A stretch of DNA of 64,000 nt from Aquilaria yunnanensis (taxonomy: Eukaryota; Streptophyta; Magnoliopsida; Malvales; Thymelaeaceae): contig CM077599.1 of NCBI GenBank assembly GCA_039654915.1, forward strand, positions 23,373,501-23,437,500, in the 5' to 3' direction. Positions 45,255 through 64,000 of this stretch are shown here, piece by piece. The notes beneath the pieces are model-generated. The model saw only the letters and a list, made by a program, of their open reading frames with translations, did not search any database and was not told the DNA's origin. The position numbers and the translations under genes were made by a program. Numbering within the stretch: the first letter of the stretch is position 1; each line of letters starts with the position of its first letter.

Positions 45255-47259
45255 ATGGAGTCAACAGTGGACATGTCTAGTATAAATGGAGATGATGCTA
45301 ACAATCAAGAGGCTAGAATTGGAAGTGGTTCTAAAAGAGGGAAAAACAGGACTTGGTCAACAGTTTGGAATGAGTTCGAATCCATTGATGGTGAGCTGTA
45401 TCCAGATAAGGTGAAAAGAGCCAAATGCAAACATTATAAAATAAAGGAGTACAAGGCAAATTCCACAATAGGAACAAAAAATCTTTTGCGTCATTTGAAA
45501 AAGTGTGAAAAGTATCAGAGTTCCTTAAATGGTAGTGGTAGCAATGAAGAGTCATCGCATCGAAAGTTAGATGAAGCTACCTGTAGGGAATGGCAGTGTA
45601 GAATCACAATCAAACATGGGTTACCATATTCGTATGTTGAGTATGAAGAGGTACGTGGTTACAATTCATACTTGAACCCTGATGTTAAGCATGTATGTCG
45701 AAACACTCATAAGAATGAAATTGCTAAGTTCCATAAGAAATTGGCAGAACAACTTAGATCTTTTTTGGAGAATCTTCTTGGAAGGATTTGCTTAACTCAT
45801 GATATATGAACATCACTGATTGATGAAGGGTATCTTTGTGTCACTGCACATTATGTAGACATTGGTTGGAAGTTGAGGAGTAAAGTTTTGACTTTTCTAA
45901 ATCTTGAGCCACCACATAATGCTAATATATTATATGAGAAAATATTTGGTCTCTTGAAAGAGTGGAGGATTGAGAACAAAATTTTTTCCATCACATTAGA
46001 CAATGCTAGCAACATGACTAGTATGCAGGCTTTGTTGTGTGGCCAACTCAACCTTCGAAATGGTTTGATTTGTAGAGGAAAATATTTTCATATTCGTTGC
46101 AGTGCACATATTTTGAATCTTATTGTTCAAGATGGGTTGAAGGTAGTTTCTGGACATCTAAAAAAAATCAGAGATAGTATTTTATATGTTCGTAGATCAG
46201 AAGCAAGAAGGATTAGGTTTTTTGAGTGTGCTCAAGTAGTTAGGGTAAACATTTCTAAATCATTATGGCTAGATGTACCTACCCGGTGGAATTCTACTTA
46301 TTTGATGCTTGAGAGGGCACTTGTTTATCGTTCAGTATTTTCTCAGCTGCAAATTATTGACACATGTTATGAACATTGCCTTAGTGATGTTGAGTGGGAC
46401 AAAGTTGTAAAAATGCAGCAATTTTATAGCCTTTTTATGAAATGACAACTCTCTTTTATGGTTCTGAGTATCCCATTGCGAATTTGTACTTTGAGAATGT
46501 GTGGAGAATGCAAAAGTTTATACTGGAGACATGAATAATTCGGACTTACAAATAAAAGAGATGGCACAACAAATGAATGAAAAGTTTCAGAATTATTGGA
46601 AGGATTTTTCAGCAGTTCTCTCATTTGCAGTTGTACTTGATCCTCGTTATAAGTTGGCCTTTCTCAAGTTCTGTTATGAGAAATTGGGTACTGCTCATGC
46701 TTCTAAATGGTTAGATGTTCGAGATGAACTATATTTTCTTTTCAAAGAGTATGAGGCCTGTGGTGGTGGTTCATTTCACTCATGTGAAGTTGGAACTGGT
46801 GGTGGGCAATCTTGTCGAGAAGTAAACTCAGATCTTCTTGTAAGTAGACTATTTTCCTAATATTATGCTTGCATATAATTTTTATATGTTGTAAAATACT
46901 TTCAAAATTGATAGATATATTGATGTGGATTTAGGATTTTTGCCCAAGATTCAATGGGAAGTTTTAACTTGAAGTCACAGTTTGATCTTTACTTGGATGA
47001 GCCTAGAAAGCCAATTGAGTTGAAGTTAGACGTCCTTGCTTATTGGAAAGAAAATGAAGCACGATATCCAATCATTGCACAAATGGCAAGGGACATATTG
47101 AGCATTCCTATCACAACTTTTACTTCAGAATCAACTTTTAGTATGGGTAGTAAGATTCTTAACAAATATAGGAATCGTCTTGTTCCTGATAATGTGCAAG
47201 TTTTACTAACATCTCATAACTGGTTATATTGTTACGAAGGTATGGTTTCTCTTTTATGA
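45255..47259 (+). pseudogene. hAT transposase (RICESLEEPER/DAYSLEEPER-like), broken
   Basis: An acceptor TTTAATTTACAG precedes the ATG at 45255. The parts, in order, are a BED zinc finger with CKHYK, where the second cysteine is Tyr, then RHLKKC (residues about 30-75); a DUF4413-like central region with NEGY-type text (DEGYLCVTAHYVDIGW), LDNASNM and RCSAHILNLIVQDGLK; and a C-terminal hAT dimerisation domain (QFDLYLDEP, LAYWKENEARYPII, FTSESTFSMGSKILNKYRNRL). Breaks seen are an in-frame TGA at 45807-45809 where family members have Trp, a frameshift near 46430, a second near 46500, and an unreadable join at 46835-46950 that may be a small intron. The transposase cannot be made as one chain. Confidence 0.85.
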
Positions 47260-48039
47260 TTTTTCTTTAATTTTCAATATATCATAGTTGTTGCTAATTT
47301 CTTTTTCTTTCTCAACCAACTCAGCTGAATAGTATGAATTGAAACATCTGAATGGCATAGAAGTGGAATTAGATTCATCGACCAATTCTGTTGCATCTTC
47401 TAATTTGGTGTAGAGGTAAAATTGAGTCTAGTCACTATATAGTAGTTAAGTTTTTAGTGCTTTTAGACAATAGCTTACTTGATAACTAAGGATATAACTC
47501 TATATTTTATTTTTCTATGTGTTGACACCCAATTTCGTCCGGGTTTTTTTTAAAAAATTTTTTTTAAAAAAAAAAAAAAAAAAAAAACTAATTAAAAAAA
47601 AATTATCATTATTATTATTATTATTGCTAAAAAATTTTAATTATGTTAATTAGTTTAAAATATATTTTTATTTTGAGAAGATTTGATTTAAAATAATATA
47701 TGTGTGAATATGTATGTGTTTGAAATAAAAATAAAATTTCAGGAAAAAATGAAAAAAAAATAAAAGTTTGAGGTAAAAATGACAAAATTAAGAAGTTTCA
47801 GGCAAAATTGACAAATTCTGAAAGTTCCAGGAGCATTTGGCAGTTTTTCACATAAAATTTTGAGCCTGCCGACGTTTTTGGCTCAAATTGACAGAAAACG
47901 ACAAAATTGTCAAAATCAGAAGCTTCAGGAACTTATCCAGAGGCTGAGAGACGTAAAGGACTAAAATTGTCATTTTACCAATTTAAGAGATAAGTTTGAA
48001 ATTTTTTATTAATTTATCCGTCCACAGTTCAGCTAAGCT

Positions 48040-48055
48040 CCTTCTATAAATACCC
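48040..48055 (+). promoter_or_regulatory. LTR promoter TATA box
   Basis: TTCTATAAATACCCCC, followed by a C-run and CAGTTCTGAACACAG about 25 bases on, a plausible transcription start. This would place the U3-R junction near 48070. Confidence 0.6.
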
Positions 48056-48224
48056 CCCCAAATTCAGTTCTGAACACAGAAAAAAATAGCAAAAAAACTT
48101 AGAGCTCCGTTTTAAAAAAAAAAAAAATTACAGGCCTTAGCCCCAGCCCTCTTCCCTTCTTCCCCAGAAAGCCAAAACTTTTTTTTCTTTTCTCTGTTCC
48201 GTCTCTCTCTCTCTCTCTCTCTCG

Positions 48225-48545
48225 CCGTGCCCACCACCGCCGTCCGCCGGCCACCACGCCTCCGCCCAGCCGTCCTGCCGCCGTCGTCCGGCCGTCCCGC
48301 CGCCGTCGCCGTCGTACCCAGCCTGACGTCCGCCGCCGCGCCGTTCCCCTTTTCTTCTTCTCTCCTTGCGCCGGCTGCTGCCCGCCGCTCCTCCACCGCC
48401 CTCCGCTTCGCGCCGTTGCCCCTCCGCCCGTGCTCGCCGTCGCCCTGCGCTTCCGCCCCCACGCCCTTGCGCCCCGTGCCCTCGCCGCCGCTCGCCTGGC
48501 TGCCCCTCCCTCCCCCCACGCCGTCCGTGTCGCGCCTCTTTCCTG
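48225..48545. other. GC-rich, CCG-rich block within the AT-rich LTR
   Basis: About 320 bp of CCGCC/GCCGTC-rich DNA just downstream of the putative transcription start, following a (TC)n run at about 48203-48223. Open in several frames on both strands because stop codons are rare in such sequence, so I do not call a gene. Confidence 0.7.
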
Positions 48546-49731
48546 GGATTCAAAAACAAAAACTAAAGGGTATAACTCTTGTTTTGTCTTCTATCTTTTC
48601 AATTTCTTTCACTTTGGTCACTAACCTTTTATTTTGTTCTTGCAGAATTAATTCCTAACTATTTTAATTTTTACTTGTTTATTTATTTGTTATTATTACT
48701 AACCTTTTTTTTATTGTTGTTATTAACAACTAACAACTAACTTGACTAACTTTTATTATTATTGTTATCACTAACTTTTATTTTTGTTATACTAACAATT
48801 AATTGTGCTAACCACTAACTTTTATTATTATTGTTATCACTAACTTTTATTTTTGCTATACTAACAATTAACTGTACTAACTTACTAACTTTATTATTAT
48901 TATTGTCACTAACTTAATAACCTTTTATTATTGTTATAATTGTTACTAACTTACTAACTTTTATTTTTATTGTTGTTATTATTGTTAACGATTAAATCAA
49001 TTAACATCATTAACTTTTATTATTGTTATTATTAATTTTAACCATTAACTTTACTAACTTTTGATAATTTTTATCATTGTTGTTAACAACTAATTTTTTT
49101 ATTTTATTATTATAATTATTGTGGATGACCAAAAAGGCCCACTTTATTATTATTAATTGTCTTTTGGTGGTTAAATTTATTTCACTTTTAATTATAAACA
49201 ATAATAACAAATTAAAAATTAAATAAAAAGAATTTTATGTGAATAATTAAATTTATTAAGGTTAATTAAAAATCATTTTTAAAAGCCAATTATCTTTTGT
49301 TATTTCTAAAACATATATTTCTTAAAAAAAAAAAAAAAGAGAACAACAACAAAAATTTAATCTTTTATTCCTTTACTAAAATAATTGAATAAACATAAGT
49401 AAATAACAACTAATTAAAAGAAAATCCTTTTATGTGAATGATTAATTTTATTCTTTAAGACTAGCATAAATGTTTTAAGAAAAAAAAAAAAAGCTAATTA
49501 TCTTTTATTATTTCTTGAAGGAGCAATAAGAAAAATTAATTAACTTTTTATCCCTTTTATTAAAATTAATAAACAAACATAATTAAATAATTCTAAATAT
49601 ACAAATCAATTCTTTTTTAACATATCTTTAAAGTAATGATATTAAAATTTAAAAATTCAAGAAAAATCCAATAAAATTATAATTAAAATTAATAATTAAA
49701 AATTAAAAATTAAAAATTTTTAAAAATTAAA

Positions 49732-51410
49732 TTCCATGTCCAAATGATCCGCCAGGATCCATGGCTTGGAAATATTTTTAAATAAAGTATACAAATAAAT
49801 TTTTCTTTATTAAAAATAAAAACTTTGGACTAATATAATAATTATTTAATAAAATATAAATTTTTAGCTTTCTTTATTAATAAAAAGAATAAAGGAGTAA
49901 AAATTTTCTTGGGCTAATATTTTACTTATTTCTTTCAAAATAATAAAAAAAAAAGATATAACATTTTTTTTTTGTTTCCTTTATTAAATAAAATTTTATT
50001 CAAATGATTTCAAATAAAGGTAATAATAAAAATCTTTTAGCAAACAAAAAGAACATAAAAAAATCATATAAATATCAAAAACTTTTTATACATATAAATC
50101 TTTGATTTCTTTAATCTTTTTTCAAAATAAATTATATAAATATCAAAACTTTACCTTTATTTTCCTTATTAAATAATCATTTTTGCTTAATTTTTTTATC
50201 AAAAATAAAACAAACAAATATTAAGATTTTTATTTTATTTTTGAAATATATATATAAATTTCCGGTTTCATCATTAAATAAGTAAAGTTTTGTTTACTTT
50301 TTGATTCACCTTTTATTAAATAAAATATTAAGGCTTCACTTTTATTTTTAAAATATACATATAAATCTTTAGTTTTTTTTTTCATTAAATAAACAAAACC
50401 TTGATTAAATAATTACTTTCTTGGTTCATCTTTTATCAAATCAAAAAAAATAAGCTTAAAAAATAAATATGTATAAATATCAAGACTTTCTTTATATAAA
50501 TCTTTTCTTTATTATTTTATTGAATAATTAATTTTGGTTAATCTTTTAAATAAAAAAATCAAATACATGAGAATTAAGATTTTATTTTCAACTCTTTTGT
50601 TTTCTTTGGTAAATAAATAAAATCCTGGTATTAAATAATTATTTTTATAAAAAATTAGTTCATGGTATATTGGCTGGAAACTGTCTCGTGCCCGCTTTCG
50701 AGCTGCTTCACCTGGTGAAGAGGGTCTGGCTGAGTAACAACGCCCCGTACCATGATCAAAGATTTTTTTTCTTATTTTTTTTAAATTCTTTGATTCCTTT
50801 AAATTAACTTCTTATTAAATAAAAAAATTAATTTCTTTTGAATTCTTTTATAAATTAAGAAAAAAATCAGATAAAAATAAAAGAAAGATAAAAAAAAAGA
50901 AATAAAAGAAAGATAAAAAAAGAAATAAAAAAAAAAGAAGATAAGAAAAATAAGATAAAAGATAACAAAAAAAAAATAATAAAAAGAAAGAAAGAAAAGA
51001 AGTAAAAAAAATATAAAAAAAAAAAGAAATAAACAAAATTTTTTTTAAATTAGTTAACATTAAAGATCATTAACAAAAACTCTAAAATTTCATAAATAAA
51101 AATAAAAATTTATAATTTAGTAATTAAACTAAAATTAATTCTATAATAAATAAGAATTATATAATTAACTATAAATTAAATCAACTTACATATCCAGATG
51201 ATCCGTCAGGATCTGCGGTTTAAAAAAAAATATCACCCTTTTAATTAAATAAATTAAATAAAAAAAAAAGATAAAAATCCATATTTACAATATGGATTAA
51301 ATTATTTAAAAGTTCACCAAATTCCGTGTCCAAATGACTCGGCAGAGTCCATGGTTCGGAATCAAAAATCTTCCGTGTCCAAATGACTCGGCAGAGTCCA
51401 TGGTTCGGAA
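49732..51410 (+). repeat. Dispersed 40-bp hairpin units with matching base changes in the stem
   Basis: Units at 49732-49771, 51322-51361 and 51371-51410, with a weaker one at 51191-51221. The inner stem is GATCC-gcca-GGATC in the first and GACTC-ggca-GAGTC in the next two. The outer stem is TTCCA...TGGAA in the first and TTCCG...CGGAA in the others. The loop-side word TGTCCAAAT is constant. Paired changes that keep both stems suggest that folding matters, either in RNA or as DNA. Confidence 0.65.
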
Positions 51411-51687
51411 GTATAAAATTTCATACAAACTAATTAATTTAAAAATCCACATTTCGACTAATCCAGTTAAAATTTCTAATTTTGAAAATTAACTGAGAAT
51501 TATTTAAAAGCAAAGTAAAACAAAATTAAAATCAACTAAGGTGCCAATTTTTGGGCGTTTTAACAAAGTTGTTTTAACGTAACCGTACTCCCGATCCCCG
51601 AACTCTCGCAGACCAATTTTAAGGTGACCAATCGAGCTAAGAAAACTGATTGGTGGCGACTCCCGAAAACCCGACGTTGCCACAGCC

Positions 51688-51706
51688 TGGCGACTCCACT
51701 GGGGAC
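51688..51706 (+). other. Primer binding site complementary to tRNA-Arg
   Basis: TGGCGACTCCACTGGGGAC, starting three bases after the LTR end. It complements the 3' end of plant tRNA-Arg (acceptor stem ending GGAGTCG plus CCA), with one difference in the T-arm side. Confidence 0.8.
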
Positions 51707-52311: not shown

Positions 52312-54006
52312 ATGGATATTCTCGATTATCTTCCCACGGCTGTTACTGGATCATGGAATGACACGGTAATCGAAACTCAGCCTGAAGCTATGGAATATTC
52401 CGAAACGGCTCAAAAGCTTCACGGAGATGCTCTGACATCCCATTCTCACGTACAGCTTAAGGACCAGGTATCGGTCCGGATAAATCAGAACGACACCACG
52501 GAATTGTTGCAAGTCTGGAATAGTTGGAATTCTACTGATCGGGAAGCTTTTACGGCAAAATATGGTCACATCACTTGCCTACTAAAGGTTACCGTTGATG
52601 CATCACTTGTCCGGGCTCTAATACAATTTTGGGATCCATTTTATCGATGCTTTTCTTTCGATAAGATGGATCTGGTTCCAACCATTGAAGAATACAACAG
52701 CCTCTTGGGTTGGTCCTCCGACTATCCAATCGAGACTTATCAACATGATAGAAGAACGGAGCCTCATCGAGCCCTAGCAAAATTATTGGATATGCCAGCT
52801 TCCAGTCTTCAAACCAAGTTTGCAACAAAAGGATCTCGAAAATTTATCAGTTGGATCGACTTAAAACAATTAAGTCACGTTCTCCCTCAGAAAAATCAAC
52901 GACGCAAGCTTTTCGCCTTGGCGATATATGGCCTGGTAGTCTTCCCAAGAATCGTCGGATTTATTGAAGGAGACGTCATCATATTATTTGAGCAAGTCTG
53001 CAATGCCCAAGTAAATCCGACCTCAGTGATATTATGTGAAACTATCAGGGCATTAAACTTTTGTCGCCAAAGAGGAGGCAAATTCATAGGATGTTCACAT
53101 CTCCTCAACGTTTGGATCAAAAGCCACCTTCCTTGTGAGAAGCAACATTTTGGAAATCGCTTTTCAAAGGACTTCATCCCAATTGAAGCCTTTTTGAAAA
53201 GTGAAACCACTAATCATGATAGCAAGGAAGCATGGGTTGACTACTTCAAGAACATCAGCGAATTCCAAATTGAATGGAGAGCACCCTGGTCCACCACCAC
53301 CCGCATAGTTTACCGTTGCGGCAATTGCCCGTGGGTTCCTCTCTTAGGCATATGGGGAGGAACAAGCTATGCTCCAGCCCAAGTACGTAAACAATTTGGG
53401 TCCATGCAATTTATACCCATGACACATAACCTGAGCAAGTTGGAGTTTTCACATGAAGATCCAAATTCAAATAAGCTTGCAATGGGTATTTCAGTTGCAT
53501 GGAAAAGACCTTTCATATTAAAGTCAGGCCCTATTATTTCTCCTACTGCGTATTATGAATGGAGAAATAATCGGAAAGAAGGAACAGTTCTTCCCGAAGA
53601 GGTCATCAGAAAATTGGCAAAAAGAGAGTTGGAGAAAGAGCTAGAGGAAGAAAAGGAGAAGAACAAGAAGATGCTCTTCGACATACAACAGCTCAGTCAC
53701 AAAACACAACTCCTCGAAGAAAAGATCGAAAGCCAAAAACAAGTCATCACCGAATTAGTTGATGAAACCGATCAAACAGAGATGAGAGCAAGATATTGGG
53801 AAGATCAATACAGATTTTCTCAAGAACAGCTTCAAATATTTTTGGCAGAAGTCAGAAAAGTGACTGAGCAAGCCCAACTAATGGGCGAAGAAGCCAAGGA
53901 GTTAGAAGAATTGAGCTGCCCTACTCCATCAGTGAATATTCAAAAAATGATGGAGTTTATTTCAAAGGCCAGAAAGCAATACTGTACTTTGGGCCGTTTC
54001 TTTTGA
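52312..54006 (+). CDS. Ogre ORF1 protein (unknown function)
   Basis: A 564-residue frame between the leader and gag, the place where Ogre elements carry ORF1. The central region contains LVRALIQFWDPFYRCFSF, a PTIEEYNSLLGW block and LFALAIYGLVVFP, then a WRAPW...CGNCPWVPLLGIWGG block. These resemble the plant mobile domain and the DUF7745-type proteins. From about residue 440 to 545 it is a long charged coiled coil (LEKELEEEKEKNKKM...). The role in Ogre replication is not established. A start upstream is excluded by the lack of in-frame ATG in the leader. The frame shows no damage. The gap to gag is about 190 bp and there is no overlap, so ORF1 and gag would need separate initiation or splicing. 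Confidence 0.85.
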   Translation: MDILDYLPTAVTGSWNDTVIETQPEAMEYSETAQKLHGDALTSHSHVQLKDQVSVRINQNDTTELLQVWNSWNSTDREAFTAKYGHITCLLKVTVDASLVRALIQFWDPFYRCFSFDKMDLVPTIEEYNSLLGWSSDYPIETYQHDRRTEPHRALAKLLDMPASSLQTKFATKGSRKFISWIDLKQLSHVLPQKNQRRKLFALAIYGLVVFPRIVGFIEGDVIILFEQVCNAQVNPTSVILCETIRALNFCRQRGGKFIGCSHLLNVWIKSHLPCEKQHFGNRFSKDFIPIEAFLKSETTNHDSKEAWVDYFKNISEFQIEWRAPWSTTTRIVYRCGNCPWVPLLGIWGGTSYAPAQVRKQFGSMQFIPMTHNLSKLEFSHEDPNSNKLAMGISVAWKRPFILKSGPIISPTAYYEWRNNRKEGTVLPEEVIRKLAKRELEKELEEEKEKNKKMLFDIQQLSHKTQLLEEKIESQKQVITELVDETDQTEMRARYWEDQYRFSQEQLQIFLAEVRKVTEQAQLMGEEAKELEELSCPTPSVNIQKMMEFISKARKQYCTLGRFF

Positions 54007-54199: not shown

Positions 54200-57100
54200 A
54201 TGGCAGAACAAGCCGAAGGACGTCTCATGGAGATGGAGTCCAAGATTGAAAGTATGTCAGAACAGATGAAACAATTGATGGAATTAATCAAAGGGAAAGC
54301 AACTCAAGTCCCCATCAAAGAAGTACAAGATCCCACTTATCCCCCGGGATTCACCCCGCAACGAGTCTCAGTCCAAGAAAACCTGTTTCAAGAATCAGGA
54401 CCCTCTGCTAGTGTTCACCTGAAACAAGACACTGTACAGGAAGAGAAGAAGACATTACCAAAAGATGAAGCAGAATCTCAAAAAATCGAGACAATAGAGA
54501 AAAGACTGAGAGCCATTGAAGGAGGCACTATATTCGGATCCCTTTCAGTGGATGACCTCTGCTTAGTGCCAGACGTCGTAATCCCTTCAGATTTTAAGGT
54601 GCCAGATTTCGTAAAATACGATGGAACGAGTGATCCCATCACTCACATCACTTTGTTTCTCAGAAGACTACAACCACTTACCAAAGATGAGAAGGTGTGG
54701 ATCGCACTTTTTCAGGAAAGTCTCACAAAATCAGCATTACAGTGGTATCTAAGCCAAGGTCCAAGAAACATAAAAACTTGGAATGACCTTGCTCAGGCCT
54801 TCATCGGCAACTATAAACATGTTATGGACTTAGCTCCGGATCGCCAAACTCTCCAAAACATGGAGAAGAAAAAAACAGAAACTTTTAAGGAATACGCCCA
54901 ACGATGGAGGGACTTAGCTGCACAAGTACAGCCACCCATGACAGAAAGAGAAATGGTCACTTTGTTTGTCCAGACACTGAAATACCCATATTATGACAAA
55001 CTTATTGGCAATGCGGCAACTAACTTCTCCGACGTAGTCATGTCTGGAGAAAGGATCGAGCATGGTATCAGGACCGGGAAGATTACTGAATCCTTTAGCG
55101 ATCCTATGAAAAGAGGAGGACCTTCTAGAAGAAAAGATGAAGAAATACAACAAATCGGACGAGGAAGAGGGATTCCCCTCGTGGGTACCGTGGCTACCGG
55201 ACCTCGCCTATCCTATTCTGCCAACAGGCCCAATTATTATCCTACCAATAGGCCCAATGATTATCCTCCAAATAGGCCCAGTGATTATCTTCCCAATAGA
55301 CCCAACAATTATCCTCTCAACAGGCCTAATCAGTTACGGCCACCTGTTCCGACTCCTCCAATGCCTGCACCAAGACCAAGAGAAATTTTCGCACCGATTC
55401 CCATGACTTATACTGAGTTATATCCAAAACTCATCCAGAGCCAACTCATTCACCCAATTCCCACAAGGCCATTCGAACCCCCATATCCAACATGGTATGA
55501 CCCTAAACTAAATTGCCCATATCATGATGGTGCCGTGGGCCACGGACTCGAAAATTGCATAGCATTGAAGCGTATAGTCCAACAATTAATTGAGTCAAAG
55601 TGGTTGGACTTTTCCGATGAACCAAACGTCACTCATAATCCATTGCCTCCTCATCAAGCCAAACCAGTCAATATGATGGAAGAATACTGGCCGATGAAGA
55701 AAACAGTCAATGATATCATAACCCCTCTTAAGCATGTATATTCATGCCTTGTGAAAGAAGGGATTATCACAGGAAAGTCTTCTGGAAATAAAGAAGTCGA
55801 GCATGAGGAATGGTGCAACTTTCATAACAGTAAGAATCATTCTATCCAAGAATGCCCAGAATTCCGTAAAAGTCTACAAAGTCTCATGGACTCCTCCCAA
55901 ATCATTGTTTTTATGTCAGATAAAGAGGATGACGTGAATGTGATAATTAAAGAACAAGAAGTCAATATCATGCCAAGGCCACTAGTCATTCCAATCTCAA
56001 AATCTGCTCTCAAGCCTTTAAGAATTCAAGTTCCAAAGCCATTCCCGTACAAATCAGACAAAACTGTTCCATGGAACTATGGCTATACTTCTAACATCAC
56101 ATCAACTCCGTTAGAAGTTGGGGGCATGACTAGAAGCGGTCGGTGTTATTCTCCCGAGCAAATGAACAAGCTCCAACAAGAGAAGAATGTTACGGATCCA
56201 GCAAATGGACCTATTAACACATCTAAAGAGCAAGAGATGCCTCGAGCAGTAACAGATGAACAAGCTACTGAGTTTCTTAAACTCATAAAGCAAAGTGAAT
56301 ACAGCATCGTGGAGCAGTTGAACCGTCTGCCAGCAAAGATCTCCATACTTTCATTGCTCTTAAGTTCTGATGCCCATCGAGAAGCTCTTCTCAAAGTCCT
56401 GAATAAGGCTTATGTTGAACAAGATATCTCCGTGAACAACTTTGACCACCTTGTCAACAACATCACGGCACAAAATCTCATCACATTCACTGACGATGAG
56501 ATACCAGCAGAAGGAAGGGGTCACTCTAAGGCTCTACATATTTCGATTAAATACAAAGATCGGATTATGGCTAGAGTTCTGATCGACAATGGATCAGCTC
56601 TAAATGTAATGCCATTAGAAACTTTACATAAGATCGGTTTAGACCCATCACACCTCAACAACAGTCATATTGTTGTTCGAGCATTTGACGGAACGAAGAG
56701 AGATGTTGTTGGAGAAATAGAGCTACCAATAGGGATTGGTCCCTGTCTTTTCCACATCACATTCCAAGTCATGGATATTTGTCCATCTTATACCTGCCTG
56801 CTGGGAAGACCATGGATCCATATGGCCGGAGCAATTCCTTCTTCATTACACCAGAAAATGAAATTCATTATTGAAGGAAAGATAATCACGGTCTTCGCTG
56901 AAGAAGACATCCTGCTATCAAGACCTGCGGATGCTCAATATGTCGAAGTCAATGAAAATATACCTGATTGTTCCTTCAGGTCTTTTGAGATTGTCAATGC
57001 TGCTTATGTCAGCGAATATGGAGAAGAACCCATTCCTAGCATCTCTAAAACAAGTCGCATGGTTGCCAAACTCATGATAAAAGGAGGATACTCACCGGGG

Positions 57101-57507
57101 TTAGGACTGGGACAAGATCTACAAGGAATCACAGAACCATTGAAAATCACCACAAATGAAGGGAAATACGGCCTAGGCTTCACACCGACAAGACATGATA
57201 AAATGAAGGCAATAGCTGAAAAGAGAGAAAAGAGGATTGCACGATTAACAGGGCATCCTCTCCAGGAAAGAAATCTGGATATCCCTGAAATCACCGAAAC
57301 GTTCGTGAGTGGTGGTCTCATTCCAAAAAATGAAAATGAAGGCAAGCTGACTATCAACATCAACAAGTCTTTTGAAAGTCTTTCTATTCAGGCAATCATC
57401 AGCGATTCACCTGAAGAGGAGGAGCTCATTCAACCTTGTGGCCCACGGGATGTGCTGAACAATTGGGAGGCGATAGAACTGCCTGTTATAATTGAAAGCT
57501 TTCCAAA
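54200..57507 (+). CDS. Ogre gag-protease, 5' exon of the gag-pol frame
   Basis: Open from ATG 54200. Domains: a short coiled coil (residues 5-35), a Ty3-type gag (about 130-295, KVWIALFQESLTKSALQWY and ETFKEYAQRWRDLA), a proline-rich tandem repeat of NRPNxYP (342-377), and two knuckle-like motifs in which a histidine replaces the second cysteine (C439-H442-H448-C453 and C539-H542-H547-C552). A retropepsin follows with D796-N-G-S, and a G-patch (about 952-994) comes after it. Read without splicing the frame stops at TAA 57509-57511; splicing the intron at 57508 removes that stop and enters the RT frame. The active site D-N-G rather than D-T/S-G is common in this lineage. Confidence 0.85.
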
Positions 57508-57709
57508 GTAATCTAATAGTAAAAACCTCCTAAAGAAAGGTTCAATCAATAGGGTGTAGTCTTTGTTTAAGTGAACCTTTTAGTTATTGCTTTTTATTCC
57601 AATAAAGTTGTGATTTATGCACATTGTAAATAAAGTACCAGTTTGCATCCATCTCATTCGTGCCATTTTTTTTTCTCTCTTCTCTTTCTTTCCTCTCTGG
57701 ATAATGCAG
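57508..57709 (+). other. Intron between protease and reverse transcriptase
   Basis: The donor CCAAA|GTAATC and the acceptor GGATAATGCAG|A follow a pyrimidine-rich tract (57667-57699). The upstream exon ends in phase 2, one base at 57710 completes the codon, and the next codons are in frame with the polymerase ATG at 57741. The unspliced reading has a stop, so splicing is needed for a continuous gag-pol chain. An intron at this place is established for Ogre elements; its exact borders here are inferred from the bases. Confidence 0.8.
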
Positions 57710-60700
57710 ACCCAAAACTCTCTTTGATGACAATGAAAGAATGAACTTTGATAATCCTGTAAACACTACCGACTCGGATGACGAAGATCTTCAAGTATCT
57801 CCTGAGCTATTAAAAATGATTGAGCGAGATGAAAAAGAAAGAGCAACAAGTCAAGAACCAACTGAGGTATTCAACCTGGGAGACAGTCAGGATGTAAAAG
57901 AAGTCAAGATTGGCACTTTATTCCCTCCTGAAGAAAAAGAAGAATTAGTCCATTTATTGAAAGAATATGTGGATGTATTCGCTTGGTCATACCAAGATAT
58001 GCCTGGCTTAAGCTCAGACATAGTACTACACAAAATACCTTTGAAGCCTGGGGCGAAGCCTGTCAGACAGAAGTTACGAAGATTAAAGCCGGAGTTAATC
58101 TTAAGAGTAAAAGACGAGATTCGAAAGCTATGGGATGCAGGATTTCTTGGGGTCGCTGAATATACAGAATGGGTGGTTAACATTGTCCCAGTCGAAAAGA
58201 AAGAAAGTGGGAAACTAAGAGTTTGTCAGGACTACCGGCCTTTGAACGAAGCCAGTCCTAAAGATAACTTCCCACTTCCTCATATTGATACACTGGTGGA
58301 TAATACCGCAGGAAACTCCTACTTTTCCTTCATGGATGGTTTTTCTGGATACAATCAAATCAAACTTGATCCAGATGACATGATAAAAACTGCTTTTATT
58401 ACCCTTTGGGGTACCTTCTACTATAAGGTGATGCCTTTCGGGTTAAAGAATGCTGGTGCTACATATCAAAGAGCCATGGTCACGTTGTTCCATGACATGA
58501 TGCATAAAGAAATTGAAGTATATGTGGACGACATGATCGCCAAAACTTTCACTGCTGGGGGGCATCTAAAAGTGCTAAGAAAACTATTCGATAGACTTCG
58601 CAAATATCAATTGAAGTTGAATCCTGCCAAATGTACTTTTGGAGCCTCTTCAGGAAAGTTATTGGGTTTCATAGTCAGCAAGGACGGGATTCGAGTTGAC
58701 CCGAGTAAAGTCAAAGCGATACAAGAAATGCAACCCCCGAAGACTCCAAAACAAGTAAGAAGTTTTCTGGGTAGAATCAACTTCATAGCAAGGTTCATAT
58801 CACAATTGACGTCCAAGTGTGAACCGCTTTTCAAATCACTAAAGAAGAACAATCCGATTGAGTGGAATAACGAATGCCAAGAAGCGTTCGAGAAAATCAA
58901 ACGATATCTATCAAATCCACCAGTCTTGATACCACCTCGATCCGGAGAACCGTTGATTCTATATTTATCCATACAGGATTCTTCATTAGGATCCGTATTG
59001 GGTCAACGTGATGAGACAAGCAAGAAGGAGCATGCAATTTACTATTTGAGCAAAAAGCTTACCACATATGAAGCTAAATACTCAATAGTAGAAAAGTCCT
59101 GTTGTGCCCTTGCATGGGTAGCACATCGACTACGACACTACATGCTCAACAACACAACATTACTGATCTCCAAGACTGACCCCATTAAGTACATTTTCGA
59201 GAAACCCGCTTTATCAGGCAGGATTGCAAAATGGCAAATGCTGTTATCTGAATACGACATACAGTATGTCACCCAAAAGGCCGTAAAAGGAAGTGTGATC
59301 GCTGAATATCTGGCTGATAGAGCATTGGAGGATTATGAGCCCATGAGAATGGACTTTCCTGATGGAGATATAATGACGATAGAACAGGAAGTCGATGAAG
59401 AAAATGAAACATGGAAAATGGCATTCGATGGAGCATCTAATGCTTTGGGACAAGGGATCGGAGCTATACTCATCTCTCCAAGCGGAGAGCAGTTTCCCCT
59501 CACAGCAAAAATTACATTTCCTTGTACCAACAATATAGTAGAGTATGAAGCATGTGCTATGGGACTCCAAATGGCATTGGATTTGAAAGTGCGAGATCTC
59601 CGAGTCTATGGGGATTCCGCATTAGTCATATATCAAATCAATGGAGAATGGGAGACAAGAGATTCAAAATTGATCCCTTACCAAAAGCTTATACTAGACA
59701 TGACTCGAAGATTTAACAGTATAAGTTTCCATCATCTTCCAAGGGAAGATAATCAAATCCCAGACGCTTTAGCTACTTTGGCTGCTATGTACAAGATAAG
59801 CGACCCTGAGCATACTCTTGTGTTCGAGATGAAAATAATAGATTCTCCAGCTTATTGCATGAGCATCGAAGAAGAATTGGATGGAAAGCCTTGGTATCAT
59901 GATATCAAGAAATACCTCCAAGAACGAACATATCCACTAGAAGCATCAGAAAATGACAAGAAATTTCTACGAAGATTGTCAATGGGTTTTCTTTTAAACC
60001 TAGACATACTCTACAAGAAAACCGCAGACTCGATGCTACTTCGCTGTGTAGATACTCATGAAGCACGAAAGATCATGGAAGAAGTTCATTCTGGAATATG
60101 TGGAGCACACACTAGTGGTCATACCATGGCAAGACAAATAATGAGGGCTGGCTACTATTGGCTCACATTGGAAAGTGATTGTATTAATCACGTGAGAAAA
60201 TGTCACAAATGTCAAATATATGCCAACAAGATCCAAGCTCCACCCACCCCTCTTAATGTAACAGCAATACCTTGGCCTTTTGCCATGTGGGGAATTGACG
60301 TCATTGGAGCCATTACCCCTAAAGCTTCCAATGGTCACAAATTCATCCTAGTGGCAATTGACTACTTCACTAAATGGGTAGAAGCTATGTCATATGCAAG
60401 TGTGACTCAAAAGGTGGTATGCCGGTTCATTAAGAAAGAAATCATTTGTCGTTATGGGCCGCCGGAATGTATCATCTCAGACAATGCCACGAACCTGAAC
60501 AATGCAATGATGCAGACTTTGTGCCGGCAGTTCAAAATCAAACATCTCAATTCGGCACCTTATCGACCAATGATGAATGGTGCAGTAGAAGCGGCCAATA
60601 AAAATATCAAGAGAATTGTTGAAAAGATGATCGTCACTTACAAGGACTGGCATGAGATGTTACCTTTTGCACTACATGCTTATAGAACTTCTACCCGTAC

Positions 60701-61139
60701 TTCTACTGGAGCAACACCTTTTTCTCTGGTATACGGTATGGAGGCTGTATTGCCCATCGAAGTTGAAATACCTTCATTAAGGGTACTAATGGATACTCAA
60801 TTAAGAGAAGCAGAATGGGTCAAAGCTAGATACGAGCAATTAAATCTAATTGATGAAAGAAGAATGATAGCCCTCTGCCATGGGCAACTTTATCAAAGAA
60901 GGATGATTCGTTCTTACAACAAAAAGGTTCGCCCACGACAATTTCACGAGGGTGACATAGTGCTCAAGAAAATTTTACCCATGCAACATGATTCAAGAGG
61001 AAAATGGACACCAAATTATGACGGGCCATATGTCGTGAAGAAAGCATTTTCAGGAGGGGCACTAATTCTGACAGAAATGGATGGACGAGAATTACCGAAG
61101 CCAGTAAATTCGGATGCAGTAAAGAAATACTTTGCATAA
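57710..61139 (+). CDS. Ogre pol: reverse transcriptase, two RNase H regions, integrase
   Basis: The 3' exon of the gag-pol frame. Numbering from the internal ATG 57741 (1132 residues): RT at about 105-345 with FMDGFSGYNQI (D199), FGLKNAGATYQ and the YVDD box (261-264); a Ty3-type RNase H at about 400-520 that looks weakened (IQDSSLG replaces the usual motif); an archaeal-type RNase H at about 555-685 with D563, E601, D625 and D675 all present; and an integrase with an HHCC-type head (H783, H793, C821, C824) and catalytic D853, D914 and E950. The tail (1060-1132) has the FHEGDIVLKKIL and WTPNYDGPYVVKK blocks. An inactive first RNase H with an added archaeal RNase H is a mark of the Tat lineage. 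No frameshifts or stops. Confidence 0.92.
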
Positions 61140-62527
61140 TGAAGAAATTTTCAAACAGAAGGGGAGAAGTGGATACAAGGTTACCAAAGTTTATTTGATC
61201 AAAGTTGTCAAAGAGAGCTTTCTTCTCTTACACTTTCATTATCTATCTGTACCCAAGATTTTCATATTACTCATAAATAAAAAGCCAATTTTCTTTAACT
61301 TACCTTAGATTCTCACGTTCAAAATGCTAAAGTCGCTTCTATCCAGTTCTTTTCCTTCAAATCTCACATTCTTACTAGCCTTAAGTGTGCAATAAATTAT
61401 GACTTTTGAAGGAAGAATAGTAATAATTAAAACTTAGAAAAAACAAAGACCGTAGATTACTTTGATAAGCTTTATGAATTAAAACAGGTAAGATTGAGGT
61501 CCTGCTTTGCGAGCGGCACAGAACATAGGCTAACAAAGAAGAAGGAGTAACAAATCTTTGGGAGATAGCCTTGGTGGTAGCCTGAATGATCGCTTCAGAA
61601 GTCTTAACACGTCCATGTCAGCAAGAAAGAATCATACTCACGAATATCTCAACAGGGACAATTATCCAGAGAGGCATAAAGTACGAGGCGGACATTAAGG
61701 AAATTGAAGCCAAAATTTAAGAACAAATCAAGGAAAGAAGATTTTTGAAAAGAGTTAGGCTTTTGAGACAATGGACAATAGCTGGAAAGCGAGACAATGA
61801 ACAACAGCTGGAAAGCAAGACAAGGAACAACAGCTGGAAAGCAAGACAATGAACAACAGCTGGAAAGTGAAACAATGGACAACAGTTGGAAAGCATAAAG
61901 AGATTCAACGATAGAAGGCAATTACAAAGAGGATCCAGTAAAGCAAAGATATAAAAAATAAATCCATCAGTTACACATGCTCTGCATTCATGCATTTGAC
62001 ATCATGCATGCATGGCATACAGAACAAGGATCAAATGGGAAGCGTATCCACCGCACAGTCACAGCAGTATAAGCTGACGTCTCAGTGACATCCGTTTTTA
62101 CCAATCTACCGCTGGATGCACAGTTGATATAGTGGACCCAGCCCCATCAGCAATTCAAGGATAAAGTAGACAATATTGTCAAAATCCTGGTAATCAATTC
62201 AATAATCGAGGCTACACCGGGATGGACAGAATTGACGCCAGCTTAGCGGTATCCAAGATAAGAAATAGCTATGGTCAAAGATAAGCGTGGATATCGAGAA
62301 ATATTGTCGTCGAAAGCAGACAATGGATTCAATAATCAAGGACTGGATCAATGTCATGCCTGATGAGATATCAAAGATAAGAAATATCTATGATACTAAA
62401 ATAAAGTAGGATCCACTTTTCCGGTTAAACGGCGGATACGGTACTCCGTGACTCTCAAGTCGGTTCTCTCAGTTGCCCATAATAACTGATTCCTTCACCC
62501 CTTCTTTCTTTTACTTCCTCCTAGAAA
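61140..62527 (+). other. Untranslated region after pol
   Basis: No gene is seen in about 1.4 kb. It contains the 26-bp tandem array at 61765-61894. Near its right end (62490-62524) a pyrimidine-rich tract ends in CTCCTAG just before the next ATG, so it may include a splice acceptor for the downstream ORF. Confidence 0.6.
61765..61894 (+). repeat. 5 x 26-bp tandem repeat in the Ogre 3' region
   Basis: Units of GAGACAATGAACAACAGCTG + GAAAGC start at 61765, 61791, 61817, 61843 and 61869, each 26 bp and differing by a few bases. Tandem repeats in this part are known for Ogre-type elements and can seed satellite DNA. Confidence 0.85.
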
Positions 62528-63076
62528 ATGGATCCTACTTTTTCCGCCTTGCGAAAGTATTTCCCTTCTCTCCCAATGAACATCCTAAAAAAGATCTACC
62601 AAGTTCGCTGTGAACGATTAAGAGCTCTGATGCATAAAGGAATCCCTGAAGATGTGCGGTGGTTAATTGAAGCTAAGGTTCGTCTGGCAGGTGAAATCCC
62701 AGAGGCATTTGTGTCTTACATGCCTGGTGTTGGCAAAAGTTCTTATGCCAGAAAAAGAAGAGCGAAAAGATTACAAGTCTGCCATAAATGTGGTAGGTGG
62801 ACTTGTAAGACTAGGTGTCGTTCTTTAGGAATGATCTCCAATAATCGAGAAGATAAAATACGGTTCATCAAGAATGGCTTGAGTAAGGACTCATTGGATG
62901 ATATCCAATTGACTCTTGAGACGCATTCTTGTGGATCTGTGCAACGTGAAATTCTTGATTTATGGAGTATTTTTCATGAAGAACGAGACCGTTACAGTCC
63001 CGGGAATCTGACTTTAAACGACCCTGTTTGCCGGTTTGTAAGAAAGCTGGATGGGAAGCAGATCCTCGACTCATAG
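62528..63076 (+). CDS. Extra ORF copy 1: 182-residue basic zinc-motif protein
   Basis: Open from ATG 62528 to TAG 63074-63076, downstream of pol in the same orientation. Features: N-terminal YFPSLP (11-16), a helical stretch with RGIPEDV-like text (KGIPEDVRW, 37-45), a basic run SYARKRRAKR (72-81), then C85-C88-C93-C97 spaced CX2CX4CX3C, RSLG (98-101) and FIKNG (113-117), and an ETHSCG...LNDPVCRFVRKLDGKQ tail. The basic patch plus metal-binding cysteines suggests a nucleic-acid-binding, perhaps nuclear, protein. The order basic patch, cysteine cluster, FI..G resembles cysteine-rich nucleic-acid-binding proteins of carlavirus-like plant RNA viruses. That is pattern recall, not a search. An AG at 62523-62524 after a pyrimidine tract may be a splice acceptor. 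Confidence 0.75.
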   Translation: MDPTFSALRKYFPSLPMNILKKIYQVRCERLRALMHKGIPEDVRWLIEAKVRLAGEIPEAFVSYMPGVGKSSYARKRRAKRLQVCHKCGRWTCKTRCRSLGMISNNREDKIRFIKNGLSKDSLDDIQLTLETHSCGSVQREILDLWSIFHEERDRYSPGNLTLNDPVCRFVRKLDGKQILDS

Positions 63077-63365
63077 AAGCCGTTAATGCCGTTACTGGAC
63101 GTAAAACCAGTGGAAGATGTGAGCCACAGTCACAATTACTGTACATACAGTTTGTTATATTTGGAAAAATTTGCATTTTCTTTTGACAGATGTACATGCT
63201 CCCCTAAGTGTAATCGACACGTTATCCCTTTTCATCACTATAAATGCGTGTTCTTCCTTCTGATTAAACAACAGATAAGATACCCCGTGACTTCTAAAGT
63301 CGATTATTCCAGTTTCCTGTAATAACTGATTCATTTCCCTCTTCTCTCAAATTCTTCTCTCATCA
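63076..63365 (+). other. Spacer between the two extra ORFs
   Basis: 290 bp, non-coding. It includes the shared downstream and upstream tails of the tandem duplication and a possible TATA box. Confidence 0.6.
63239..63245 (+). promoter_or_regulatory. Possible TATA box upstream of extra ORF copy 2
   Basis: TATAAAT preceded by CAC and lying 121 bp before the ATG at 63366. The corresponding position upstream of copy 1 does not have it. Confidence 0.35.
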
Positions 63366-63914
63366 ATGGATTCTACTCTTTCTGTACTGCGAAAATACTT
63401 TCCTTCCCTCCCACTAAAAGTCCTTAAAAAGATCTACCTTGCTAGATGTGAAAGAATCAGAGTTTTTACACGCAAAGGCATTCCCGATAATGTGCAGTGG
63501 ATAATTGAAGCTAAGGTCCGTTTGGCGGGTGAAGTTCCAGATGCATTCATGCCCCGCATGCCCGGTTTAGGTAAAAGCCGTTATGCCAAAAGGCGAAGAG
63601 CAAAGAGACTAGGCGTGTGTTATAAATGTGGGCGATGGAATTGTAATACTAAATGTCGCTCTTTAGGATACATCTCCATAAATCGTGAAGATAAAAGAAA
63701 ATTCATTAAGAATGGCCTGCGTAAGGAGTCTCTGAAAGATATCCGAGAGACTCTTGAAACGCATTCTTGTGGAAAAGTGCAAGGTGAAATTATCGGTTTA
63801 TGGAGGACTTACCATAAAGAACGAAACCGTTACAGTCTTGGGAATGTGATTTTAAACGACCCCGTTTGTCAGTTTGTAAGAAAACTAGATGGGAAGCAAA
63901 TCCCCGACTTATAG
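63366..63914 (+). CDS. Extra ORF copy 2: paralogue of 62528-63076
   Basis: Exactly 182 codons, the same length as copy 1, with no insertion or deletion between them and about 70% identity by hand count (127 of 182). The cysteines C85, C88, C93 and C97, the basic run (SRYAKRRRAKR), GIPDNVQW, RSLG, FIKNG, ETHSCG and LNDPVC are all kept, and many differences are conservative. The duplication includes about 90 bp upstream (CCGTGACT...TAATAACTGATTC) and at least 85 bp downstream (TTACTGGAC...GAGCCACAGTCA). Offset between the copies is 838 bp. The end of the window cuts the unit, so more copies may follow. Confidence 0.75.
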   Translation: MDSTLSVLRKYFPSLPLKVLKKIYLARCERIRVFTRKGIPDNVQWIIEAKVRLAGEVPDAFMPRMPGLGKSRYAKRRRAKRLGVCYKCGRWNCNTKCRSLGYISINREDKRKFIKNGLRKESLKDIRETLETHSCGKVQGEIIGLWRTYHKERNRYSLGNVILNDPVCQFVRKLDGKQIPDL

Positions 63915-64000
63915 AAGGCATTGAAGCCATTACTGGACATGAATTAGTGGAAGATGAGAGCCACAGTCATGATTGCTGTACATATAAGCTGTCATTTGTC

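Follow-up and report, generated by a model that had tools for sequence, protein, structure and literature searches.

A candidate accessory module of virus-like nucleic-acid-binding and LONELY GUY-type genes in two lineages of plant Ty3/gypsy retrotransposons

Behind the pol gene of a retrotransposon of Aquilaria yunnanensis lie tandem copies of a small ORF resembling the nucleic-acid-binding, cysteine-rich proteins of plant viruses (NABP, or CRP), followed by an ORF of the LONELY GUY (LOG) type. We read them as an accessory module of plant Ty3/gypsy elements, made of a small, basic zinc-finger protein that is akin to the NABP/CRP of carlavirus-like viruses or closely mimics them, and then of LOG. 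With the transfer and the roles proposed below, we give this reading a probability of about 0.5. Positions are those of the window, the whole stretch of 64,000 nucleotides that was analysed (contig CM077599.1); features lying past its end are given in window-equivalent coordinates.

The carrier element

The sequence past the window edge was taken from L010, which contains the continuation of the element and supplies a third NABP copy, an intact LOG-type ORF, an array of 73-bp repeats and, finally, the 3′ LTR. Window and continuation together give an Ogre-type element of 25.2 kb, flanked by the target-site duplication CTATG (47515..47519, repeated outside the window at 72732-72736, just 3′ of the 3′ LTR). 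The 5′ LTR (TGTTGACACC...TTGCCACA, 47520..51684, + strand) and the 3′ LTR (68564-72731, L010:5064-9231, outside the window) are 99.83% identical, with four mismatches. A primer-binding site, TGGCGACTCCACTGGGGA (51688..51705, + strand), is presumably of the tRNA-Arg type. Three intact ORFs follow on the + strand: ORF1 (52312..54006, 564 aa), a DUF7745/plant mobile domain (PMD) protein; a gag-protease ORF (54200..57511, 1103 aa), in which Retrotrans_gag and G-patch domains were recognised and aspartic protease matches stay below the Pfam cut-off; and pol (57741..61139, 1132 aa), encoding reverse transcriptase, RNase H, a second RNase H (RVT_3) and integrase. The first-pass annotation had placed the small ORFs downstream of pol in an Ogre element, and this holds. 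Location within an LTR was rejected because self-comparison and the downstream sequence position both LTRs elsewhere.

Assignment to the Ogre type, using the lineage features described in PMC6317226, is supported by the PMD ORF and by an additional RNase H that separates the first one from the integrase. RVT_3 was found at pol residues 570-680, ahead of the integrase zinc domain (770-827), and ORF1 scored 36.4 bits for PMD (cut-off 34.9) and 187 bits for DUF7745 (cut-off 26). According to PMC6317226, 57% of Ogre elements have a PMD ORF upstream. The carrier is a young family of high copy number. For the second small ORF, a first look gave 8,653 genomic places; 150 were scored, all 150 of them 100% identical. 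Being young and abundant, it allows success and gene content to be compared inside a single genome.

The NABP-like and LOG ORFs

Copy A (62528-63076, + strand, 182 aa, pI 9.7) lies in tandem unit 1 (62417..63259, + strand), and copy B (63366-63914, + strand, 182 aa, pI 10.2) in unit 2 (63258..64000, + strand), which runs on past the window. They had been described as two 182-codon ORFs, 838 bp apart and about 70% identical; we find 838 bp from start to start and 127 identities over 181 residues (70%), free of gaps. Both are real, but the count of two is really three, since copy C (64179-64727, L010:679-1227, outside the window) sits past position 64000, in a unit that begins at about 64086. 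The basic run reported next to a zinc motif was recovered as well: A and B keep RRAKR directly before CX2CX4CX3C (C85, C88, C93 and C97), plus FIKNG.

Each of A, B, C and LOG is, judging from substitution patterns, under purifying selection. This had been proposed for A and B, and their pairwise dN/dS of 0.26 bears it out. Paralogues gave 0.25-0.32. Between subfamilies, counting pairs with dS >0.05, values were 0.12-0.17 for copy A (9 pairs), 0.14-0.36 for copy B (9 pairs), 0.12-0.16 for copy C (2 pairs) and 0.13-0.21 for LOG (2 pairs). One C pair, differing at three places only, counts against this, with dN/dS of 0.57 (dS 0.008). Broken copies also occur, as 4 of 25 full-length A copies contain stops. 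When divergence between A and B was simulated under a null model, only 16 of 2,000 runs kept a stop-free frame, and a mean of 79 amino-acid changes was obtained (minimum 63), against 55 observed. Null runs and dN/dS rule out random open frames. It could still be argued that the ORFs are functionless passengers, open by chance or through the youth of the element: at 99.83% LTR identity, there has been little time for decay in this one copy. Against this stand the dN/dS of 0.12-0.36 between diverged subfamilies and paralogues, and the uniformity of the relatives, as 66 of the best 120 listed are exactly 182 aa long and 118 of these 120 start with Met. Unless gene conversion has distorted these dN/dS values, we consider the passenger explanation extremely improbable.

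The intact LOG ORF (65316-65945, L010:1816-2445, outside the window) is predicted to encode a LONELY GUY-type cytokinin-activating enzyme of the cytokinin phosphoribohydrolase family. It matches TIGR00730 at 149.6 bits (cut-off 96.35) and PF03641 at 106.7 (cut-off 27), retains the motif PGGxGTxxE as PGGFGTLGE at residue 111, and has Arabidopsis 2a33 as its best PDB relative. For NF058542, an NCBIfam equivalog model used to name bacterial and archaeal proteins, the score was 98.7 bits, below its cut-off of 300. A YgdH/LOG domain is already known from LTR retrotransposons of Citrus and Populus (PMC9289625, citing Steinbauerova 2011). As here, a LONELY GUY-type domain travels aboard a plant Gypsy element; the difference is that LOG is here tied to NABP-like genes, and in two lineages. 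The section of PMC9289625 on the screen reporting these domains makes no mention of NABP.

Likeness to viral proteins

The suggestion of a virus-derived protein was upheld for profile likeness, but not for origin. Copies A, B and C all exceed the Pfam cut-offs for PF01623 (Carla_C4) and PF05515 (Viral_NABP), and among 99 family members 90 match Carla_C4 and 92 Viral_NABP at E<=0.01. In L001, an element from another plant, the ORF is above the cut-off for Viral_NABP and slightly under it for Carla_C4. The match is confined to a core of about 34 residues; the first 65 residues of the protein and the last 83 match nothing. CX2CX4CX3C is found in 102 of the best 120 relatives listed, whereas carlaviruses are reported to have CX2CX9CX4C or CX2CX12CX4C (PMC3689765, PMC9559581); the carlavirus-like pattern C..C.{8,14}C.{4}C occurs in 1 of these 120. 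Because the likeness sits in some 34 residues and the zinc spacing differs, a viral origin of the ORFs stays at plausible.

These limits leave room for a NABP of non-viral ancestry within the same module, its basic run and CX2C zinc ribbon having arisen by convergence or come from a plant gene. Shuffled sequences retaining only the Cys, Lys and Arg positions matched Carla_C4 in 2 of 5 cases (18.4 and 12.4 bits, under the cut-off), meaning that this pattern alone can reach 18.4 bits. The original core, however, scores 33.1 bits for Viral_NABP over 78 residues and none of 9 shuffles match, most members share that match, and no plant host-gene family is prominent among the best 120 relatives listed per search. 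We regard non-viral ancestry as quite possible, at somewhat less than even odds.

What is shared with carlavirus-type proteins is a basic run directly preceding a Cys-rich motif that opens with CX2C. Residues K75, R77, R78, A79 and K80, immediately ahead of C85, each reach 90% conservation or more among 99 sequences, so that the basic motif adjoins the zinc finger. The proteins described here differ in their length of 182 aa, their unmatched termini and their spacing, and in being encoded after a retrotransposon pol in three copies; the carlavirus CRP gene is 3′-proximal in a flexuous RNA virus and overlaps the coat protein gene. Scans of viral contigs gave no relatives. With a 77-aa profile, 403 proteins were obtained at E<=10, none being named viral among the best 120; a later family search (584 relatives) again had family members among the best 120 listed and yielded no viral sequence. 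Neither phage relatives nor related solved structures were found for copy B. One relative, P0012, bears the automatic source name "Viral nucleic acid binding".

The module in an Athila-like lineage

The annotation had proposed looking for the same ORF downstream of pol elsewhere, and it was found in other elements and other plants, with 318 relatives in one protein search and 584 in another. None of the findings named beforehand as refuting the proposal was made (no viral profile likeness, dN/dS near 1, or frames in one element only). In the A. yunnanensis genome, an NABP-like ORF directly follows pol at 29 of the 30 top-scoring integrase loci of Athila-like type, and at 17 of the 30 LOG comes next; at the other 13, no LOG was found within the 1.5 kb seen. 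These loci belong to older, mostly broken elements with the order pol-NABP(-LOG). Homology to the Ogre element begins at 62416/62417, the left edge of unit 1, in 29 of 31 loci. Other contexts vary: L036 has copy A alone, and L035 A and LOG only (1.5 kb seen). L001, the sole Athila-type sequence scanned, has a pol fragment with integrase domains and no RVT_3, then NABP, with no LOG-sized ORF listed in the 1 kb 3′ of it. We take L001-type elements to be Athila, a lineage without the second RNase H ahead of integrase, in part on an Athila integrase motif. Among Rhamnella gene models, P0091 joins an integrase piece to NABP, and P0114 joins NABP to LOG.

From the carriage of these genes at Athila-like loci and the single point where homology starts, we infer that the NABP+LOG module moved between two retrotransposon lineages, NABP being triplicated in Ogre. 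The direction would be from Athila-like to Ogre, through template switching or DNA recombination. In a tree, 19 host Athila-like NABPs and Ogre copies A, B and C form one clade (100/99), with A sister to Athila-like plus B and C (96/83), so that one single capture is not certain. A common gene set in two lineages points to an exchange of virus-style accessory genes among mobile elements. The complete scenario is tentative, and we hold it to be rather less probable than its opposite: an ancestral Athila-like element captured a flexivirus-type silencing suppressor and gained LOG, this module for counter-defence and hormone supply moved whole to Ogre, the suppressor was triplicated and the element multiplied to a very large number of almost identical copies.

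Possible roles, precedents and expression

Silencing suppression is a reported activity of viral CRPs, one of which has been described as a transcription factor (PMC12172455). By analogy, NABP would be a nuclear nucleic-acid-binding protein that boosts element expression, most likely by shielding element transcripts from host RNA silencing.

LOG family proteins make active cytokinin; here LOG may raise it in the same cells and favour a dividing, permissive state. If NABP were mainly a transcription factor, it could reprogram host cells towards division together with LOG, in the manner of chrysanthemum virus B p12, a carlavirus CRP for which a transcription-factor role leading to hyperplasia is reported (PMC12172455). 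LOG follows NABP in both lineages, but its absence from the 1.5 kb seen at the 13 loci means that the pair may not be obligatory, and we find this role rather unlikely. A role within the particle of the element, as an RNA chaperone of the nucleocapsid kind or as an aid to packaging, with no action on host silencing, would fit a strongly basic protein (pI 9.7-10.2) with a zinc motif, present in three copies and adjoined by retroelement genes in the contexts seen. Yet the element already has its own gag, L036 and L035 show a single NABP copy within the 1.5 kb seen, and many other retrotransposons are not known to carry an NABP-like ORF; we judge the chaperone role improbable.

Lying in sense orientation between pol and the 3′ LTR of a member of the OTA clade, the ORFs recall the extra ORFs (eORF/aORF) described in plant Ty3/gypsy elements (PMC6317226, PMC7264820). 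The 2019 survey took in ORFs from 250 codons upwards (PMC6317226), so that one of 182 falls below its limit. The main texts of both papers lack the string "carla", and that of PMC7264820 also lacks "NABP"; no NABP-like ORF in a retrotransposon appeared in titles or abstract starts among the matches listed. The role and source of antisense extra ORFs are described as largely open (PMC7264820), and for extra ORFs either a regulatory function or descent from an unknown virus has been put forward (PMC11963269). Orchid Gypsy elements carry an m6A demethylase, whose AlkB domain also occurs in flexiviruses (PMC9289625). They likewise gained and retained an RNA-directed accessory gene, but the protein is another one, found in Phalaenopsis only in that screen. 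Insect retrotransposons captured viral SF1 helicases, for which an anti-silencing role is proposed (PMC6338049); there too a virus-like gene lies within a retroelement, but as helicase domains in insect elements instead of separate small ORFs in plants. The extra ORF described here has a recognisable plant-virus relative, some members of which are reported silencing suppressors, and relatives in several eudicots. Linked to a hormone enzyme, it is traceable across two lineages via a precise junction. Function can therefore be tested using single proteins, and the case exemplifies modular accessory-gene exchange among retrotransposons.

As for expression, a TATA-box-like TCATCACTATAAAT precedes ORF B (63232..63245, + strand) and recurs ahead of copy C (L010:557-570) and again ahead of LOG (L010:1769-1782); no motif of this kind was found upstream of copy A. 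Copies B, C and LOG may thus be transcribed from TATA promoters of their own, splicing being the other route considered. The sole Rfam match in 61100-64000 fell short of its gathering score of 60, at 28.7 bits. Right after ORF A, a possible hairpin (63092..63113, + strand, low confidence) shows one compensatory change, in L001, among seven sequences of which several are near-identical.

The ORFs and their Ogre-type element

The two ORFs located after pol, ORF A (62528-63076, + strand, 182 aa) and ORF B (63366-63914, + strand, 182 aa), lie 838 bp apart and their proteins align without gaps, with 127 of 181 residues identical, in agreement with the roughly 70% of the first-pass annotation. The RRAKR basic run, CX2CX4CX3C and FIKNG, reported there in this order, are kept in both. 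At the DNA level the repeat extends past the ORFs (62419-63147 against 63258-63984, 76.7% identical). Differences between A and B fall on the codon positions as 36/29/59, and an A-B dN/dS of 0.26 bears out the purifying selection proposed for the pair. When 124 random changes were introduced in 2,000 runs, the mean number of amino-acid changes was 79 (minimum 63), versus 55 observed, and 16 of the 2,000 runs remained stop-free.

The ORF had been described as kept in two copies. Both are present, but the count does not hold, as a third, ORF C, was found at 679-1227 of L010 (the next 9.4 kb past the window end), 72% identical to B and 68% to A. Further on come a 209 aa LONELY GUY-type cytokinin-activating ORF (LOG, L010:1816-2445), which would be 238 aa from an in-frame ATG upstream, and, between LOG and the 3′ LTR, outside the window, a 73-bp tandem repeat array (about L010:2962-4938). 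The 5′ LTR (47520-51684) and the 3′ LTR (L010:5064-9231) are 99.83% identical, with four mismatches, and the TSD CTATG flanks the element on both sides. From these mismatches and substitution rates in the literature, we take the insertion to be roughly 37,000-69,000 years old. The element is 25,212 bp long, in a host genome of 842 Mb, and each of its reading frames, from ORF1, gag-protease and pol to A, B, C and LOG, is uninterrupted in this copy. Its assignment to Ogre stands: RNase H is followed by a second RNase H ahead of integrase, and gag is preceded by a plant-mobile-domain ORF, features taken from a description of the lineage (PMC6317226).

A 26-bp unit (about AGACAATGAACAACAGCTGGAAAGCA) is present in tandem copies in the spacer after pol (window 61766-61895), an in-frame 24-bp tandem repeat in gag (window 55214-55333) encodes Asn/Pro/Tyr-rich repeats, and the 5′ LTR contains a repeated 40-49 bp palindromic-looking motif (window 51322-51419, similar near 49733 and 51190). 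ORF fragments just upstream of the 5′ LTR (window 45255-47259) presumably resemble a hAT-type transposase. In the gag-protease ORF (window 54200-57511), the protease region is followed by a G-patch domain, which has been reported in LTR elements of several dicots (PMC9289625).

Searching the genome with protein B yielded 8,653 first-look candidates, presumably including other copies of the family; of these, 150 were scored, and all 150 B loci were 100% identical, full length and stop-free. A, B and C were all present in 8 of the 8 loci returned. Among 14 further loci, selected for an intact B (four being the same places as earlier ones), all had A-B-C-LOG in order and stop-free. Twelve loci found with the protein of L001 (contig DAIEQH010000041.1) are A-type copies. 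Within the stretch seen, A and B are accompanied by the whole or a part of C in nine of them, the exceptions being L030 (without B), L035 (without B and C) and L036 (only A); A has a stop in four of the 12, and C in one. Relative to the window copy, and for pairs with dS above 0.05 only (nearly identical pairs left out), dN/dS was 0.12-0.17 for A (9 pairs), 0.14-0.36 for B (9 pairs), 0.12-0.16 for C (2 pairs) and 0.13-0.21 for LOG (2 pairs). For one near-identical C pair, separated by three differences, the ratio was 0.57. Two loci, L002 and L003, are mosaic: their B is that of the window, their A is only 91-93% identical, and there is an abrupt shift in identity on passing from A to B, suggestive of recombination between subfamilies.

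Likeness to viral proteins and relatives in other plants

Similarity to the viral profile Carla_C4, for which a search had been proposed, was indeed detected: PF01623 scores 24.1 bits with A and 24.8 bits with B (cut-off 20.9). PF05515, Viral_NABP (nucleic-acid-binding protein), is matched by A with 28.8 and by B with 32.7 bits (cut-off 23). When the protein was cut into pieces, the match was confined to a 34-aa core, GxGKSxYA..RRAKRLxVCxxCxRWxC; neither the 65 residues before this core nor the 83 after it matched any profile when searched separately. At E≤0.01, Viral_NABP was found in 92 and Carla_C4 in 90 of 99 family members. As a control, the 85-aa core of B (unshuffled, 33.1 bits for Viral_NABP and 29.9 for Carla_C4) was submitted to four full shuffles and five keeping Cys, Lys and Arg in place. 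Viral_NABP was recovered in 0 of the 9 shuffles and Carla_C4 in 2, both of the Cys/Lys/Arg-keeping type and under the cut-off (18.4 and 12.4 bits). Based on this outcome, the likeness at sequence level exceeds composition, yet is partly the Cys/basic pattern.

A protein search gave 318 relatives at E≤0.001, and a second-clade profile 584, the best 120 being listed each time. Among the best 120 of the 318, 66 are exactly 182 aa long, 118 begin with Met, 102 have CX2CX4CX3C, and 115 are closer to A than to B. The majority of listed relatives carry no source name; the sources named among the matches listed are Rhamnella, Populus x canadensis, Populus alba, Xanthoceras, Acer, Striga and Parasponia, all of which we take to be eudicots. 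Other sources thus contain A-like as well as C-like copies: identity to A is 92% for relative P0001, and identity to C is 85% for P0002.

A second lineage with the same genes

L001 is recorded as a contig of a bacterial metagenome-assembled genome, reads as a plant retrotransposon, and is probably a contamination. Its pol end lacks a second RNase H and is 31% identical to the window's pol; about 200 bp after it lies an NABP-like ORF 72% identical to A. This segment is placed between direct repeats of about 61 bp (L001:1601-1657 and 2434-2494, 82% identical), whose score was reached in 0 of 1,000 shuffles. Of the protein relatives, P0091, fused to an NABP-like ORF by the gene model, has an integrase end 70% identical to that of L001 and 25% to the window's, and in P0114 an NABP-like ORF is joined to LOG.

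With the L001 integrase end as query, the window's genome yielded 8,631 first-look candidates; 150 of them were scored and the best 30 inspected. That the same ORF occurs downstream of pol elsewhere was confirmed, integrase being directly followed by a complete or partial NABP-like ORF in 29 of these 30 Athila-like loci. LOG or part of it was present in 17 of the 30, within the 1.5 kb seen. The NABPs are mostly broken, one of the 30 being stop-free and full-length.

The junction was compared between the Ogre element and these 30 loci plus L001. For 29 of the 31, the left edge of homology lies at window 62416/62417; one more begins to match at 62431, and one shows no homology. Within the Ogre spacer 61140-62416, 2 of the 31 match over short stretches of 22 and 29 bp. 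The homologous stretch spans one NABP unit, with a right edge at 63146-63265 in 27 of 30, at 63119 in one and near 62880 in two, and, in the eight loci examined for it, a second stretch surrounds LOG, at about 65220 to 66208 in window-equivalent coordinates. Because the Athila-like homology consists of one NABP unit and then LOG, B and C were apparently added in tandem within Ogre. A 50-row tree groups the Ogre A, B and C proteins with 19 Athila-like proteins of the host, P0001 and P0002 (100/99); within this clade, B and C are nested among Athila-like rows and A, with P0001, is sister to the rest (96/83). Sequence evidence establishes the anatomy of the module, its conservation and its sharing between two lineages. 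Because what was observed in other plants is the Athila-like type, we infer a transfer from Athila-like to Ogre; it may have involved two captures, or one capture and gene conversion.

LOG, proposed role and possible expression signals

LOG scores 149.6 bits with TIGR00730 (cut-off 96.35) and 106.7 with PF03641 (cut-off 27), and is below the prokaryotic equivalog model NF058542 (98.7 vs 300 bits). Its nearest solved structure is 2a33, Arabidopsis At2g37210, and it keeps PGGxGTxxE, which we take to be the LOG-family motif. LOG in plant LTR elements is already known, a LOG (YgdH) domain having been published for Citrus and Populus (PMC9289625).

Viral cysteine-rich proteins of this type are described as silencing suppressors, and one as a transcription factor (PMC12172455, PMC3689765). 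An endogenous flexivirus replicase is reported in cucumber, in an article whose passages on it do not mention NABP (PMC3136472). Most likely, the NABP would be a putative nuclear nucleic-acid-binding accessory that aids the element's expression against silencing, while LOG would shape the cell's hormone state alongside it.

The motif TCATC(A/T)CTATAAAT precedes B, C and LOG, 33 nt before the start codon in the case of LOG. No other exact copy was found in the window or L010, and one further place, with one mismatch, is at 37713; allowing up to one mismatch, chance alone would give 0.03 occurrences in L010 and 0.28 across the window. This motif may act as a promoter. In L001, a pyrimidine tract ending in CAG upstream of the NABP module resembles a 3′ splice site, and could be used as such.
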